Assembly (NCBI GenBank): GCA_016936755.1
Contig: JAFGXF010000113.1
Span: 1-32,144 of the forward strand
DNA: 32,144 nt
Direction: 5' to 3'
DNA from: Anaerolineaceae bacterium
GTDB lineage: Bacteria; Chloroflexota; Anaerolineae; Anaerolineales; Anaerolineaceae
Within the stretch, counting starts at the first letter, position 1; each line of letters begins with the position of its first letter. The notes below the pieces were generated by a model that was not told where the DNA came from, ran no database searches, and was given only the letters and a program-made list of their open reading frames with translations. Of the stretch, positions 12,605 to 18,843 are shown piece after piece. A program made the translations under genes and the position numbers.

Positions 12605-13942
12605 TCAGGACATTTCGAGGTATCTTTTAATTTCCCAATCCGTCACGGCGATTCGGTAGGCTTCCCATTCGTGCTGACGGGACCGCAGGAAAGCATCCTT
12701 CATTACACTGCCCAGCGCGGAGCAGACAATTTCATCTTTTTCCATATCGGCCATGGCCTCCATCAATGATCCAGGTAAAGAAATGATATTGTGTGATGCG
12801 CGTTCAGCCGCGTCCATTTCATAGACATTGATATCGTTGAGCGGTTCTGTCAGGGGATAGTGGTGATCGATGCCATCCAGCCCGGCAGCCAGCATCACCA
12901 AAAAAGCCAGGTAGGGATTGCTGGACGGATCGGGGCAGCGCAGCTCGGCCCGTACAGCCTTGTCCTTGCCGGGCGGCGCGAAGGGAATGCGGATCAGGGC
13001 GGACCGGTTGACCTGCGCCCAGCCGATGTAGACCGGAGCCTCGTAACCGGGCACCAATCGCTTATAGGAGTTGACTGTGGGTGCCAGGACGGCTGTCATG
13101 CCACGTGCGTGATTGAGCTGGCCGGCGATAAAGTCACGTCCCAGCTTCGACAACCGAAAAGGATCATCCGCGTCATGGAAACAATTATTGCCATTCAGGT
13201 CTGACAGGGATTGGTGGCAGTGCATGCCCGAGCCGTTTATACCGAAAACCGGTTTTGGCATGAAAGAGGCTACCAGTCCATGCCGGTCAGCGATGGCCTT
13301 GACTGTGGTTTTCATGGTGACCACATTGTCAGCGGTGCGCAGGGCATTGGTGAACTCAAAATCGATCTCGTGCTGACCGAGCGCCACCTCATGATGTCCA
13401 ACCTCGACCTCCAGTCCCATACTGCGCAACGCATGCATCAGTTCGGTACGCACCCGTACGGCCTCATCGTTTGGAGAGAAGTCGAAGTAACTGCCAACGT
13501 CGTGTGGAACGGGGTGAGTGCTGCCGTTATCATTACGCCGGAAGAGGAAGAACTCCGGCTCTGTACCGACATTGTAGATGTAACCACGTTTTTTTAGAGC
13601 TGCCAGGCTTTTACGCAGCATCCCGCGTGGATCACCTTCGAAGGGTTTCCCGTCGGGTGTGTAAATGTCACAGAAGAAGCGAGCCCGGCGCATTTCCTCG
13701 GGCGACCAGGGCAGGATGGCATAGGAATCAGGATCGATGCGCAGGTGCATGTCGCTTTCCTGGATACGCGAGAAACCTTCAACCGACGAGCCATCAAACC
13801 AGATCCCGTCATCCAGGGCAATTTCGAGCCGTTCGATGGGGGCATCCACACTCTTGACCACGCCGTTGATATCAACGAACTGGTAGGATATATATTTAAC
13901 CCCGTCTTCTTTTACTCTCTTGAGAATATCTTGATGATCCAT
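12605..13942 (-). CDS. glnA: Glutamine synthetase type I (GSI-alpha form)
   Basis: This 445-residue enzyme makes glutamine from glutamate, ammonia and ATP. Visible signatures are DGSSVEGF (50-57), GTEPEFFLF, NGSGMHCHQSL, APTVNSYKRLVPGYEAP, NRSALIRIP and RAELRCPDPSSNPYL. The short length and the region NVYEMDAAER, in place of the NLYDLPPEE adenylylation loop, point to the GSI-alpha type, as in Bacillus, usually controlled by feedback and repressors rather than adenylylation. The start chosen is the ATG at 13942, with GGAG 8 bases upstream. A GTG nine codons earlier has no such site. A perfect 26-bp palindrome begins 24 bases upstream of the start and may control expression. Confidence 0.96.
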   Translation of the reverse strand: MDHQDILKRVKEDGVKYISYQFVDINGVVKSVDAPIERLEIALDDGIWFDGSSVEGFSRIQESDMHLRIDPDSYAILPWSPEEMRRARFFCDIYTPDGKPFEGDPRGMLRKSLAALKKRGYIYNVGTEPEFFLFRRNDNGSTHPVPHDVGSYFDFSPNDEAVRVRTELMHALRSMGLEVEVGHHEVALGQHEIDFEFTNALRTADNVVTMKTTVKAIADRHGLVASFMPKPVFGINGSGMHCHQSLSDLNGNNCFHDADDPFRLSKLGRDFIAGQLNHARGMTAVLAPTVNSYKRLVPGYEAPVYIGWAQVNRSALIRIPFAPPGKDKAVRAELRCPDPSSNPYLAFLVMLAAGLDGIDHHYPLTEPLNDINVYEMDAAERASHNIISLPGSLMEAMADMEKDEIVCSALGSVMKDAFLRSRQHEWEAYRIAVTDWEIKRYLEMS

Positions 13943-13966
13943 TTTTCTCTCCGTAATTAAATTAAG

Positions 13967-13992
13967 CACAGGTATGCCTGGGCATACCTGTG
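13967..13992. repeat. Perfect 26-bp palindrome upstream of glnA (operator or leader hairpin)
   Basis: The arms CACAGGTATGCC (13967-13978) and GGCATACCTGTG (13981-13992) are perfect 12-bp complements around a TG centre, located 24 bases before the glnA ATG. As DNA it fits a dimeric repressor site; as RNA it is a strong hairpin in the leader. It is followed toward glnA by CTTAATTTAATTA, A/T-rich but not a clean U-run, so a simple terminator is less likely. The sequence does not match the Bacillus GlnR/TnrA site (TGTNA-type) as I know it. Confidence 0.8.
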
Positions 13993-14285
13993 TATGTTAA
14001 CAACTGGCTGCCCTTCCTTATAATAAAGAGGGTTTTCCTCATCACTGTTACGTTCTTGTCGCACTCGTCGCCGGGTGTTTTTCGTTCGCCACTTGTTGGA
14101 AGGGTGGTGGAAGCCTGTGATCAGGCTTCAGAGGCATCCGCTGATCGATCGATTTTTCCCGTTGCCGGGTTAGCATCCTCTTCGCAAAGGAGAACCTCTT
14201 CCTCGTCATCTCACCAGGTGAGATGCAGCCGCCGTATCCCTGTTATTCAGTTGTGTGTCAACCCCCGTAAATGAGTACCCCACCA

Positions 14286-14441
14286 TGCCGTGTGTAACGA
14301 AGTTTTGAACCTGCTTTCGCAGGTGTGGTTCGCCTCGTAAACGCCGCCTTGGCGCTGGCCTATCGCGTTGCTTACGTAAGAAGGAACCACTTTTAGATCT
14401 TGTTGGCTCAAAACCGAAAGCGTTACATCACGCACACGGTA
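14286..14441 (-). ncRNA. Candidate structured RNA of unknown class upstream of glnA
   Basis: About 155 bases fold into nested helices with perfect arms. CCGTGT/ACACGG (14288-14293 with 14434-14439) encloses GTAACG/CGTTAC (14294-14299 with 14421-14426), then TTTTGA/TCAAAA (14303-14308 with 14408-14413). Inside this are the hairpin ACCTGC/GCAGGT (14309-14314 with 14319-14324) and the helix GTGGTTC/GAACCAC (14325-14331 with 14384-14390), which itself encloses GTAA/TTAC and CGC/GCG pairings. On the minus strand the ACCTGC hairpin is capped by a GAAA tetraloop (TTTC on plus), so the minus strand is the likely RNA. It shares the direction of glnA and the MFS gene. It does not match tmRNA, RNase P, SRP, 6S or the glnA riboswitch as I know them. 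Confidence 0.45.
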
Positions 14442-14504
14442 GGGCCATTTCCTTATATCACATTTTACCAAACATGAGTAGGAGGTCTGGGTACTATTCA
14501 GGTA

Positions 14505-15713
14505 CTATTTTACGAATTTCCAAAATAGTAATCCTGCCAGCAGGCTCAACCCCGCACCGAAGAAAAACGGGGCGGGTGCACCGAAACCGGTCCAGGTTCC
14601 GACACCCTGCCACAACAAACCGGCAATGGCTGAAGCCGGCAGGGCGCTCAATCCGACCGCCATGGCATACAGTCCATAGGCCGTACCGCGTTTTTCATCC
14701 GGGACGAGATCAGCGATCAGGGCTTTTCCAGTACCCTCGGTGAAAGCATAAAAAATACCGTACAGGCCATAGAATGCCCAGATACCGGCACCGGTTTTGG
14801 ATAGGGCAAAACCAAAGTAGATCAATGCATACAACAGCCATCCGAATAAGATCATGCGGTGGCGGCCGATCTTGTCTGAGAGAATTCCAAGTGGGGTGGA
14901 AAGCAGCGAGTAGATGAAATTAAAAGTCAGGAGCATACCCATTACCTGTAGGAGAGACAGGCCGCGCTCCTGACCGCGCAGGACGATGAAAGAGTCGGAG
15001 GAGTTCCCGAGTGTGAACAGGATGGTAACACCCAGGTAGATGAGGAAACGCTTATCCATGCCCTTGAGAGACAGTGAGGGTTTGGTGGCGCCACCTTTCG
15101 GCTTGATGTCCTTCGCACCGATGGCCAGAATTAAAACCGCCAACACAGATGGGATGATGCTGACCAGAACCAAAGTCTGGAAAGTGGGGCGGGTCAGAAC
15201 AGCTGAGTTCTTCTGTGTAAAAGCAATGATCAACATTGCAACCAGAATACCGATGAAGGCCCCCGCCGTGTCGCCGGCTCGTTGAACGCCGAAGGCCATT
15301 CCGCGCTTTTCAGGATCGGTCGAGCCGGCCAGCAACGCATCCCGAGGAGCTGTTCGAATACCCTTGCCAACCCGATCGGTGAAGCGTATGCCCAACACGG
15401 CTCCCCAGGTTGTGGCCAGATAGTAAAAAGGTTTGGCGATGGTCGACAATCCATACCCTAACACGGCCAGCCACTTGCGTTGGTGCATGCGGTCGGAGAT
15501 GTATCCGGCGAAGATCTTGGTGATGCTGGCGGTTGACTCGGCGATGCCATCGATCAGGCCGATCAATGACGTGCGCACTCCCAGCACGTTATACAGGAAC
15601 AGTGGGATGATATTGGCCAGCATCTCGGATGAGATATCGGTCAACATGGAGGTGAAGGTCATCACCCACACATTACGGTGTAATTTGTTTTTGGGCGCTG
15701 ATTTTTGATCCAT
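14505..15713 (-). CDS. MFS transporter, 12-helix type
   Basis: This 402-residue integral membrane protein has about 12 hydrophobic helices. The MFS loop 2-3 motif is seen as GYISDRMHQRK, and its second-half counterpart as LGILSDKIGRHRM. The conserved stretch DRVGKGIRTAPRDALLA and the start with SMLTDISSEM match a group of MFS permeases annotated only as general transporters, so the substrate is unknown. Start choice: the ATG at 15713 has AGGAG 8 bases upstream. A TTG five codons earlier is less likely. A perfect TATAAT at 15737-15742 lies upstream on the same strand. Confidence 0.88.
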   Translation of the reverse strand: MDQKSAPKNKLHRNVWVMTFTSMLTDISSEMLANIIPLFLYNVLGVRTSLIGLIDGIAESTASITKIFAGYISDRMHQRKWLAVLGYGLSTIAKPFYYLATTWGAVLGIRFTDRVGKGIRTAPRDALLAGSTDPEKRGMAFGVQRAGDTAGAFIGILVAMLIIAFTQKNSAVLTRPTFQTLVLVSIIPSVLAVLILAIGAKDIKPKGGATKPSLSLKGMDKRFLIYLGVTILFTLGNSSDSFIVLRGQERGLSLLQVMGMLLTFNFIYSLLSTPLGILSDKIGRHRMILFGWLLYALIYFGFALSKTGAGIWAFYGLYGIFYAFTEGTGKALIADLVPDEKRGTAYGLYAMAVGLSALPASAIAGLLWQGVGTWTGFGAPAPFFFGAGLSLLAGLLFWKFVK

Positions 15714-15816: not shown

Positions 15817-16479
15817 ATGAGTGTTAGATCAGCTATTCCCCTTTTTATTATTTTAATAGCCAGCCTGGCTTGCTCTCTGCCTGGTTTGGCTTGGTTGCCG
15901 TTCCTGTCATCTGATCCGGTTAATGTACCGGGAACCATCTATTACGATGATTTCTCCAATCCCAATACAGGCTGGTATACCCAGTACACGGATGACCATT
16001 CCGTGCTGTATGATTGGGGTGGATTGCGTTTCCGCATCAACCGCAGCCACTTTGATATGTGGTCCTACCCGGATGGGATATATGCAGATGCGATCATCTG
16101 GGTCGAAGCGGCCAAACTGGAAGGAACGGATGACAACACATTTGGTTTGCTTTGTCGTATTCAGAATGATGGGGATTTTTATGCTTTTTTGATCAGCAGT
16201 GATGGCTACGCTGGTGTAGCCCGTCGGCGGTCTGGCGAATATCATGTGTTGAGCGATGACAACATGACATACAGTGAATTGGTTGCTTCCCCGACAGGCC
16301 TTTTCAGGCTGCGGGCTGTGTGTGAGGGTAGTGAATTGGACTTCTTTGTTAATGACCTGCTGGTTGCCAGCGCCATTGATGATGGGTTGATATCTGGCAA
16401 AGTTGGAGTTCTGGCGGGCACCTATGCCCAGGCCGGCGTGGATATCTTCTTTGATAATTTCATTGTAACCGTACCATGA
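15817..16479 (+). CDS. Probable lipoprotein with LamG/DUF1080-like beta-sandwich domain
   Basis: This 220-residue protein has an N-terminal hydrophobic segment ending in IASLAC-S, a lipobox-like site with Cys19 as the likely lipidated residue. The mature part reads as a jelly-roll domain: YYDDFSNPNTGWYT at its start, GGLRFRIN, FGLLCRIQNDGDFYAFLIS and a closing GKVGVLAGTYAQAGVDIFFDNFIV. This is the pattern of concanavalin-like folds such as DUF1080 and LamG that bind or cleave sugars, but no catalytic residues can be named. It sits on the outer face of the membrane. Its stop overlaps the mtaB ATG (ATGA), so it is the first gene of the operon. A link to RNA modification is not obvious. Confidence 0.72.
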   Translation: MSVRSAIPLFIILIASLACSLPGLAWLPFLSSDPVNVPGTIYYDDFSNPNTGWYTQYTDDHSVLYDWGGLRFRINRSHFDMWSYPDGIYADAIIWVEAAKLEGTDDNTFGLLCRIQNDGDFYAFLISSDGYAGVARRRSGEYHVLSDDNMTYSELVASPTGLFRLRAVCEGSELDFFVNDLLVASAIDDGLISGKVGVLAGTYAQAGVDIFFDNFIVTVP

Positions 16480-17747
16480 ATGTCTATCTGGATATGGTTG
16501 GCTGCCGCCTGAATCAGGCGGAACTTGAGTCAATAGCGCGGCATTTACGGACTGCCGGCCATTGCCTGGTGTCAACAGCCGGTCACGCAGAGTTGGTCAT
16601 CATCAACACCTGCACTGTGACAGGTGAGGCAGCATCAGACTCGCGTCAGAAGATCCGCCAGGCTGCCCGTGCAGGTGCGCAGGTGGTGGTCACCGGCTGT
16701 TGGTCCGAACTCGAACCAGATGCAGCTGCCGCATTCCCTGGTGTCAGCCATGTTATTCCCAACGCGTTTAAAGATCAGCTGGTCGGAATGATTTTGGGTG
16801 ACACTGGAACTGTAAGACCTGCTATGGGACGTATCCCGCTGACTGGCAACCGCCAACGAACCCGTGCTTTTATCAAGGTGCAGGATGGTTGTGATAATCA
16901 TTGCACTTTTTGTGTAACACGCCTGGCCCGCGGCCGCAGCATTTCCCGCCCAATTGGCGATATCATCGATGATATCCGCCATGCCATTGCTGGCGGTGCC
17001 AGAGAGGCCGTACTGACTGGTGTTCAGATCGGTTCATGGGGACGTGAATGGGATCCGGCAGCAAAGTTGTCAACCCTTCTTGAAGTGATCCTGGCTGAGA
17101 CCGACATCCCGCGTTTGAGGATCAGCTCAATCGAACCCTGGGAAGTGGATGATGCTTTAATTGCCATGTGGCAGGAACCCCGCTTGTGCCGGCATATTCA
17201 CCTGCCGTTGCAATCCGGATCAGCATCACTTCTCAAACGCATGGCACGCAGAACCGATCCTGCAATGTATGGCAAACTGGTTGAGAAGATACGAAAAAGC
17301 ATTCCAGGCGTATCGATCACCACCGATGTGATCGTCGGATTCCCGGGTGAGTGTGAAAAGGAATTTGATGAGACGCGTAATTTCATTACAACTACAGGGT
17401 TCTCAGGCGGCCATGTTTTTCTTTTCTCAGGGCGACCGGGGACTGCCGCGGTGAACTATCCCGACCAGGTTCCACATGTCATACGACGTATCCGCAGCAA
17501 GGCATTACGAGACATATTTGACAACCAGGCGGCAGCTTTCCAGAAGGATTTCATCGGTCAGCAGCTGGATGTGTTGTGGGAGCGTTCCATTAATACCTCG
17601 TCAGGTTGGATCTCTGCCGGGTTGAGTGATAATTATTTGAAGGTAACTGCCGCTACGGCTGGCAACTGCATGAATACCATCTCACCAGTAATGATTCAGA
17701 GGATTGAGAACAGCAGGTTGATTGGAGAGATTGCGAAGAATGAATAA
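16476..17747 (+). CDS. mtaB: tRNA t6A37 methylthiotransferase MtaB
   Basis: This 423-residue radical SAM enzyme has an N-terminal UPF0004 domain with the auxiliary cluster cysteines C10, C46 and C75 and a radical SAM core with C139-x3-C143-x2-C146 (CDNHCTFC). HIHLPLQSGS and TTDVIVGFPGE are standard MiaB/MtaB motifs. The N-terminal MVGCRLNQAE and the CTFCVTRLARGRSRS-like stretch favour MtaB, which adds a methylthio group to t6A37 of ANN-decoding tRNAs, over MiaB or RimO. A C-terminal TRAM-like part follows. The gene overlaps its upstream neighbour by four bases and the tgt gene by eight, in keeping with a tightly packed tRNA/rRNA modification operon. Confidence 0.9.
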   Translation: MNVYLDMVGCRLNQAELESIARHLRTAGHCLVSTAGHAELVIINTCTVTGEAASDSRQKIRQAARAGAQVVVTGCWSELEPDAAAAFPGVSHVIPNAFKDQLVGMILGDTGTVRPAMGRIPLTGNRQRTRAFIKVQDGCDNHCTFCVTRLARGRSISRPIGDIIDDIRHAIAGGAREAVLTGVQIGSWGREWDPAAKLSTLLEVILAETDIPRLRISSIEPWEVDDALIAMWQEPRLCRHIHLPLQSGSASLLKRMARRTDPAMYGKLVEKIRKSIPGVSITTDVIVGFPGECEKEFDETRNFITTTGFSGGHVFLFSGRPGTAAVNYPDQVPHVIRRIRSKALRDIFDNQAAAFQKDFIGQQLDVLWERSINTSSGWISAGLSDNYLKVTAATAGNCMNTISPVMIQRIENSRLIGEIAKNE

Positions 17748-18843
17748 AAATACCATACGGTTACGCAACCAACCGGTAAAATTGCCGGTCTTCATGCCGG
17801 ATGCCACTTTAGGCATTGTGCGTTCGGTGGATGCTGCTGATCTCGAAGATTGTCATATCCAGGCGGTGGTGATGAACACTTATCACCTGATGCAACGACC
17901 CGGCTCGACCACCATCGATTCATTGGGCGGCCTGCATGATATGTGCGGTTGGCAGCGACCCATCGTGACCGATTCGGGTGGATTTCAAGCGTATTCATTG
18001 ATCCAGGAAAATCCCAAGTTTGGTTCGATTACTGAGAAAGGCATCCACTTCAGACCAGAGGGCACTGCGCGTAAATTCCTCTTAACACCGGAGAAGTGCA
18101 TCCAGCTTCAGTTTGGATATGGCTCAGATGTGATCATCTGTCTCGACCAGTGTACCCATGTGGATGCCCCCCTGGACCAGCAGCAACAGGCTGTCGAGCG
18201 TACGGTACGCTGGGCAGGGCAGTGTAAAGCCGAGTACTTAAATCAACTCGAACATGCCAAGATTCGCGGGGATGCACGCCCCAAACTCTTCGCGGTCATC
18301 CAGGGCGGTGGTTATCGTGATCTGCGTAAGGCTTGTGCTGAGCAACTGTTGGAGATCGGATTTGACGGGTTTGGCTTTGGTGGCTGGCCGCTGGACAAAC
18401 AGGGTGTGTTACTCGATGAAATACTCGCCTATACACGCAGCCTGATTCCATCGGATTATCCGATGCATGCGTTGGGCGTGGGACATCCCCGGAATGTTGT
18501 GGCCTGCCATGACCTGGGATATGCATTATTCGACAGCGCCATGCCGACCCGGGATGCGCGCCATGGGCGTCTCTATCGTTATAACCAGCCTGACGGGGAC
18601 CCTGGTGCTGGATTGATGGGTGACTGGATGCGATACATCTATATTGATGATAAGAAGCATATCAAGTTGGATAAACCCATATCGGATGGGTGTGATTGCC
18701 TTTGTTGCCGGCGCTATTCGCTGGGTTTTTTGCACCACCTTTTTAAGATCAACGATCATCTTTTTTATCGGTTGGCGACGATGCACAACCTGCGGTTTAT
18801 GAGTCAACTGGAAGAACGACTCAGACTTCGCGCAATTGGATAG
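17740..18843 (+). CDS. tgt: Divergent tRNA-guanine transglycosylase (Tgt family)
   Basis: This 367-residue protein (from the ATG at 17740, GGAGAG 10 bases upstream; overlaps mtaB by 8 bases) keeps the Tgt hallmarks: D78 in TDSGGFQ, D136 in CLDQC, Q188 in VIQGG, the nucleophile D265 in LFDSAMPTRDARHG, and the zinc site C318-x-C320-x2-C323-x25-H349. Tgt swaps guanine-34 of certain tRNAs for preQ1 or queuine. The loop normally reading GGLAVGE, which lines the pocket around the base's 7-substituent, is GGWPLDK here (214-220), and FDCVMPTR is FDSAMPTR. Activity looks intact, but base preference may differ. With a queuosine-precursor importer gene nearby, salvage of queuine or another deazaguanine is plausible. 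Confidence 0.85.
   Translation: MNKNTIRLRNQPVKLPVFMPDATLGIVRSVDAADLEDCHIQAVVMNTYHLMQRPGSTTIDSLGGLHDMCGWQRPIVTDSGGFQAYSLIQENPKFGSITEKGIHFRPEGTARKFLLTPEKCIQLQFGYGSDVIICLDQCTHVDAPLDQQQQAVERTVRWAGQCKAEYLNQLEHAKIRGDARPKLFAVIQGGGYRDLRKACAEQLLEIGFDGFGFGGWPLDKQGVLLDEILAYTRSLIPSDYPMHALGVGHPRNVVACHDLGYALFDSAMPTRDARHGRLYRYNQPDGDPGAGLMGDWMRYIYIDDKKHIKLDKPISDGCDCLCCRRYSLGFLHHLFKINDHLFYRLATMHNLRFMSQLEERLRLRAIG

Follow-up and report, generated by a model that had tools for sequence, protein, structure and literature searches.

6S RNA (SsrS, RF00013) is a well-known regulator of bacterial RNA polymerase, acting by open-promoter mimicry and pRNA-driven release. Nearly all known glmS ribozymes (RF00234) reportedly reside in glmS mRNAs, and extra core stems are said to occur in the glmS ribozymes of Deinococcus-Thermus; both statements are attributed to McCown et al. 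2011. Glucosamine-6-phosphate (GlcN6P) is a product made from glutamine, and we know of no earlier self-cleaving riboswitch regulon for nitrogen assimilation. The open-access literature searched contained no report linking the glmS ribozyme to glnA or glutamine synthetase, or to Chloroflexi or Anaerolinea. The classical helix P2.2 of the glmS ribozyme consists of C4-G54, C5-G53, and a bulged nucleotide 6, at least 97% conserved (PMC7125110). In cyanobacteria, glutamine riboswitches control glutamine synthetase, glutamate synthase, and small peptides (PMC2864571).

The window, i.e., the whole analyzed stretch of 32,144 nucleotides from an Anaerolineaceae bacterium, carries two structured RNAs upstream of glnA on the minus strand, very probably a 6S RNA (14448 to 14273) followed by a variant ribozyme of the glmS class that occupies the glnA leader (14244 to 14037). 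The glnA gene for glutamine synthetase (12605 to 13942, minus strand) was assigned by Pfam domains Gln-synt_C (1e-122) and Gln-synt_N (7e-27) and starts with ATG at 13942, preceded by a Shine-Dalgarno sequence at 13952 to 13947. The 6S RNA alone is an ordinary further member of a known family. The ribozyme seems to be of greater significance, and was seemingly recruited from glmS to the control of nitrogen assimilation.

An earlier note, made from the sequence without database searches, had described a large nested-helix RNA of unknown class at 14286 to 14441. Its position was right, with the true element slightly longer (14273 to 14448), whereas the class is a known one: the minus strand from 14448 to 14273 matched RF00013 with 72 bits (cut-off 46.4) over model positions 1 to 187, which is the full length. 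We regard it as nearly certain that the element is the bulk of this 6S RNA, because the full-length match is above the cut-off, the gene is present in a single copy, all six helices covary, and both the fold and a conserved promoter agree with the family; no evidence was counted against this identity. The family search found one 6S copy in the genome of the window, and exactly one match in 52 of 61 genomes (own genome and 60 relatives), 48 of these above the cut-off. The minus strand of 14286 to 14441, favored in the earlier note, had a folding energy of -58.6 kcal/mol (z -3.8 against shuffles), with a weaker z of -2.4 for the plus strand, and with the true ends the energy reached -79.7 kcal/mol (z -7.35), a stability matched by none of 200 shuffles. 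Covariation, proposed in the note as a check, was found in an alignment of 30 Anaerolineales homologues, in which 95.0% of the cells were paired and 24 of 43 pairs showed two-sided changes. The covariation score was 0.244 compared to 0.141 for shuffled alignments, with no value as high in 500 shuffles, and slid partners, used as a control, gave at most 0.070. The structure is far beyond chance, as had been claimed. That the element represents a new RNA class or a decayed mobile element has a vanishingly small probability, as nothing beyond the fold is in its favor, and the 72-bit RF00013 match, the covariation with 6S homologues, the single copy, and the retention in relatives all speak against it. 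An origin from a mobile element or decayed repeat was rejected on account of the single copy together with the conserved family match.

The individual parts that had been pointed out were all recovered as parts of the 6S fold (all on the minus strand). The three long-range helices correspond to the closing stem (5' strand 14431 to 14445, 3' strand 14278 to 14294), its extension, and helix P2, formed by GUUUUGAGCC at 14405 to 14414 and GGUUCAAAAC at 14302 to 14311 and paired in 99% of the cells (n = 30). The 5'-central bubble (14391 to 14404) contains GAGCCAACA, almost invariant in the alignment. The GAAA-capped hairpin, ACCUGC-GAAA-GCAGGU at 14324 to 14309, is the 3'-central-bubble hairpin, which has a counterpart in B. 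subtilis 6S-1 RNA (PMC8876501), and the apical arm (14325 to 14390, helices 4 to 6 of the covariation test) accounts for the second multi-helix arm. Covariation was seen in the closing stem, helix P2, the apical arm, and the inner hairpins alike and backs the closing stem, central bubble, and apical stem expected of a family member. The absence of coding capacity was also borne out: the sole open reading frame of at least 90 amino acids in the nearby gap (13990 to 14274, plus strand) lies off the element, and it was rejected as a gene, having no Pfam match and overlapping the ribozyme.

In length, rod fold, closing stem, P2, central bubble with 3'-central-bubble hairpin, apical arm, own promoter, and single gene, the RNA resembles SsrS with no difference that would exclude it from the family; what sets it apart is that it adjoins a ribozyme-led glnA here and in a few related genomes. 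A Sigma70-type scan of 14000 to 14700 gave no promoter, and the 6S promoter was recognized by comparison with relatives instead. In relatives, almost every aligned 6S RNA has the extended -10 element TGGTATAAG a few bases to its 5' side, and the window has TGATATAAG at the same position (14452 to 14460, minus strand), a conservation pointing to a promoter of its own for the 6S RNA. Terminators follow the 6S gene in many relatives. The earlier note had left two options, an RNA belonging to the glnA leader and a free small RNA. The latter is the most likely, and the 6S element is no cis-regulatory element of glnA.

By analogy with the family mechanism, the rod with its central bubble would imitate an open promoter and, when nutrients are short, would bind the housekeeping RNA polymerase holoenzyme. 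The polymerase would then transcribe the 5' side of the bubble into a short pRNA, whereby the 6S RNA would be released. Alignment with U44, which we take to be the pRNA start in E. coli, predicts a start opposite C14402 and a pRNA beginning with GUUGGCUCAAAAC.

The second RNA was found in a sensitive Rfam scan of 14000 to 14700, where the minus strand between the 6S RNA and glnA (14244 to 14037) matched RF00234 over model positions 1 to 167 with 28.6 bits and an E value of 9e-5, below the cut-off of 37; glnA-linked copies of relatives reach up to 42.9 bits. When a lineage model was built with the window sequence held out, its sole match in the window was this copy, at 14091 to 14244, with 128.5 bits (E 2.1e-38). 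There is little doubt that this RNA is a homologue of glmS ribozymes in a lineage-specific variant, given the full-length alignment to RF00234, the hold-out score, the placement of all Rfam-model matches in front of glmS or glnA, the covariation, and the P3.1 pseudoknot. Counted against it were the score of the window copy below the cut-off, G instead of the usual A at position -1, a P0 helix of just 4 bp, and a nonclassical P2.2. The location also departs from that of the family, as the window copy is upstream of glnA and glmS has a copy of its own elsewhere in the genome (G000:C25:14176-14396).

The structure was analyzed on an alignment of 22 glnA-type sequences (A2), where P0, P1, P2, P2a, P2b, P3, and the pseudoknots P2.1 and P2.2 were paired in 95.7% of the cells, with two-sided changes in 22 of 42 pairs and a covariation score of 0.364 compared to 0.171 for shuffled alignments. 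The double pseudoknot core P1/P2/P2.1/P2.2 with the cleavage-site GCG and ACGAGG was present in all 22 sequences, P2.1 and P2.2 being paired in each. On the minus strand of the window, alignment to RF00234 and the 22 relatives predicts the self-cleavage site between G-1 (14233) and G1 (14232). The P1 hairpin spans 14208 to 14224, followed by the core GACGAGG (14201 to 14207), whose ACGAGG is invariant in 22 of 22 sequences and which includes the G at 14204, assigned as catalytic from the glmS ribozyme literature. The P2.1 5' strand (14205 to 14203) pairs with UCG at 14152 to 14150. Two extra hairpins are inserted in the P2 region, P2a (14176 to 14191; 100% paired, two-sided changes in four of five pairs) and P2b (14158 to 14169; two-sided changes in all five pairs). 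They may not be unique to the Anaerolineales variant, since extra core stems are reportedly found in Deinococcus-Thermus.

The peripheral domain P3-P3.1-P4 was recognized as well. The loop of the P3 hairpin (14110 to 14129) at 14121 to 14117 (AUCAC) forms the P3.1 pseudoknot with GUGAU at 14045 to 14041, and the P4 domain AAAAAC...GGCGAC...GACAAG (14055 to 14083) aligns to RF00234. An automatic fixed-window test for P3.1 gave nothing; support came later on the alignment, with 97.3% pairing and a covariation score of 0.312 compared to 0.124 for shuffled alignments. The helix P0 joins AGGG at 14238 to 14241, immediately 5' of the cleavage site, to CCCU at 14104 to 14101 in a segment after P3, and so spans the scissile site. 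It is weak in the window copy, and in relatives true partners fitted better than swapped ones, with permutation P values of 0.004 for the glnA type and <5e-5 for the glmS type; two-sided changes were seen in five of seven P0 pairs of the glnA-type alignment. A further helix possibly closes around P4 between CCCUUCC (14104 to 14098) and its complement GGAAGGG (14011 to 14017), the latter found in the majority of glnA leaders and in none of the glmS leaders compared. Permutation and fixed-window tests detected no covariation for this pairing, which is conserved with little covariation.

A distinctive feature of the glnA type is the P2.2 helix, which departs from the classical arrangement of C4-G54, C5-G53, and a bulge at 6. 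In the window, its 5' strand at 14226 to 14231 (C2, G3, bulged G4, C5, U6, G7) pairs with 14139 to 14143 within the 3' strand UCAGCGG (14138 to 14144), the pairing being invariant in 22 of 22 sequences and the 3' strand invariant in the alignment. All 22 glnA-type sequences, and none of 55 glmS-linked copies, have G or A bulged at 4 followed by C5-G54, U6-A53, and G7-C52; this arrangement occurred with all non-glmS targets examined apart from G040 (GCGUAUG), the sole glnA-linked exception. Read directly, the P2.2 strings of G012, L093, and L135 were GCG[GA]CUG. The position-4 bulge is plausible for catalysis because the laboratory double mutant C4A+A6C of the classical ribozyme, which moves the bulge to 4, partly restored activity (PMC7125110). 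The glnA-type ribozymes are natural examples of a P2.2 rearrangement so far known from laboratory mutants.

Compared to RF00234, the window variant shares the cleavage-site GCG, P1, P2, the P2.1/P2.2 double pseudoknot, P3, P3.1, P4, and the core sequence, and it differs in preceding glnA instead of glmS, in the P2.2 bulge at 4 instead of 6, in the two extra P2 hairpins, in P0 across the cleavage site, and in a terminator-like hairpin downstream. The glmS-linked ribozymes of the same Anaerolineae have the extra P2 hairpins, P0, and core in common with it. They differ from it in their target, in a P2.2 of the GCGCAUG or GCGCCUG kind, in often having no visible P4 or P3.1, and in having no conserved terminator-like hairpin. 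In this family, many glmS-linked copies appear to be without P4 and P3.1, and the glnA-linked copies keep both.

The terminator-like hairpin CACAGGUAUGCC-CA-GGCAUACCUGUG (13967 to 13992, minus strand) is palindromic (GGCAUGCC...GGCAUGCC), and its U tract is weak in the window copy. It is conserved before glnA start codons, a similar hairpin being present in 12 of 16 glnA leaders compared to 4 of 33 glmS leaders. Antiterminator pairing with this hairpin was sought by eye and not found. A 2026 study that looked for expression platforms of glmS ribozymes saw no covarying overlap with terminators 3' of them (PMC13273304), a question that the glnA leaders with their conserved hairpin reopen.

The Rfam model gave 50 matches in 41 genomes, all preceding either glmS (33) or glnA (17). 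Relatives yielded 41 glnA genes, 28 of which carried the glnA-type ribozyme 149 to 258 nt 5' of the gene match, and the lineage model had a match in 55 of 61 genomes, glmS-linked copies included. In a sample of 161 Chloroflexota, strong lineage-model matches were confined to the order of the window with one exception (G068). When 84,980 species genomes were scanned for the glnA-type pattern, 25 loci were returned, all titled Chloroflexota or its Anaerolineae lineages, among them the cultured Longilinea arvoryzae, Bellilinea caldifistulae, Levilinea saccharolytica, and Ornatilinea apprima, so that the ribozyme can be tested experimentally. These loci precede glnA (21), a glutamate synthase domain gene (2; PF01645 with 29.7 bits in the one gene scanned), or an open reading frame of 44 to 46 amino acids (2).

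Other targets were observed among individual copies. A glnA-type ribozyme precedes a glutamate synthase (FMN) domain gene at L093, L095, and L143, confirmed by Pfam for L093. A second Longilinea glnA-type ribozyme at L086 (from about 786), L104, and L139 is followed by the open reading frame of 44 to 46 amino acids, which ends in ...ETIEILLxDxIATGG and has no Pfam family above threshold; it might serve as a small glutamine synthetase regulator. In family f12 (L137, L138, and L156 to L160), the ribozyme precedes an Ada-like gene (AraC plus methyltransferase), in several cases with an EamA-like transporter next and in G047 with glnA 2.1 kb later, and some copies have long inserts in P1 or P2b. 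At L135 (G043), a glnA-type ribozyme lies before a MOSC-like open reading frame, and at L136 (G001), no clear open reading frame was seen downstream.

From the conserved core, the glnA-leader ribozyme probably self-cleaves. High GlcN6P would most likely trigger cleavage at 14233/14232, upon which the glnA mRNA would be lost, expression of glutamine synthetase lowered, and glutamine saved. GlcN6P is rather likely to be the effector, because the core is common to glnA-linked and glmS-linked copies. Self-cleavage in response to another, nitrogen-related effector, e.g., an amine such as glutamine, is rather unlikely, and it is suggested by the targets, which are nitrogen genes and a small open reading frame as in the cyanobacterial glnA and Downstream-peptide RNAs (PMC2864571), and by a distinct P2.2 signature that segregates with the target. 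The analogy with these glutamine riboswitches (glnA, RF01739, and Downstream-peptide RNAs) lies in the target set, which comprises glutamine synthetase and glutamate synthase as well as small peptides, whereas their RNA fold is unrelated and they are not ribozymes. The core residues near the ligand and catalytic site (GCG, ACGAGG, AAAAUCG, CAGCGG, and GCC) are identical in glmS- and glnA-linked copies, which weighs against a different effector.

A noncleaving relic or scaffold, with the terminator-like hairpin alone controlling glnA, would fit the conservation of that hairpin in 12 of 16 glnA leaders, the shifted P2.2 bulge, and the score of the window copy under the Rfam cut-off. We consider it improbable, as all 22 sequences share an invariant core, covariation is strong, and activity was partly regained in the C4A+A6C mutant, which has its bulge at position 4 (PMC7125110). 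The broadest interpretation, somewhat less doubtful than the relic and still unlikely, is that a branch of the glmS ribozyme turned into a nitrogen-assimilation switch of Anaerolineales (glnA, the glutamate synthase domain gene, and the small peptide gene) with retuned cleavage chemistry (the P2.2 bulge moved, the scissile site spanned by a helix, and an attenuator coupled). The switch would possibly answer to an effector different from GlcN6P and, in certain genomes, also free the 3' end of 6S RNA from a joint transcript. If the preferred reading of a GlcN6P-responsive ribozyme on glnA is true, it links amino-sugar supply to glutamine production, and the conserved glnA-linked branch would be a self-cleaving riboswitch regulon for nitrogen assimilation without precedent, as far as we know.

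The distance between the 6S RNA and the ribozyme is 28 nt in the window, 14 nt at L094, 18 nt at L155 (G122), and 71 nt in G021. A joint 6S-glnA transcript is possible because gaps of 14 to 28 nt leave little room for a separate promoter. Cleavage by the ribozyme might then trim the 3' end of a 6S precursor and couple polymerase control to the nitrogen state, a tentative and rather unlikely scenario. It draws on the short gaps (28, 14, and 18 nt) without a terminator or good promoter in between and on the recurrence of the 6S-ribozyme order in at least two families; in the f12 genomes G047 and G060, the 6S RNA is upstream of the ribozyme that leads the Ada-like gene, followed in G047 by the EamA-like gene and glnA. 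Adjacency is, however, found in a minority of relatives, most of which keep 6S RNA and glnA apart. Relatives with wider gaps have a promoter-like site and sometimes a terminator between the two, the promoter-like site being seen in G021 and G060, and the window itself has TTGACA at 14261 to 14256, though without a good -10.

Elsewhere in the window, a radical SAM methylthiotransferase-like gene (UPF0004 and Radical_SAM) was located on the plus strand at 16476 to 17747, adjoined by a queuine tRNA-ribosyltransferase-like gene at 17722 to 18843.
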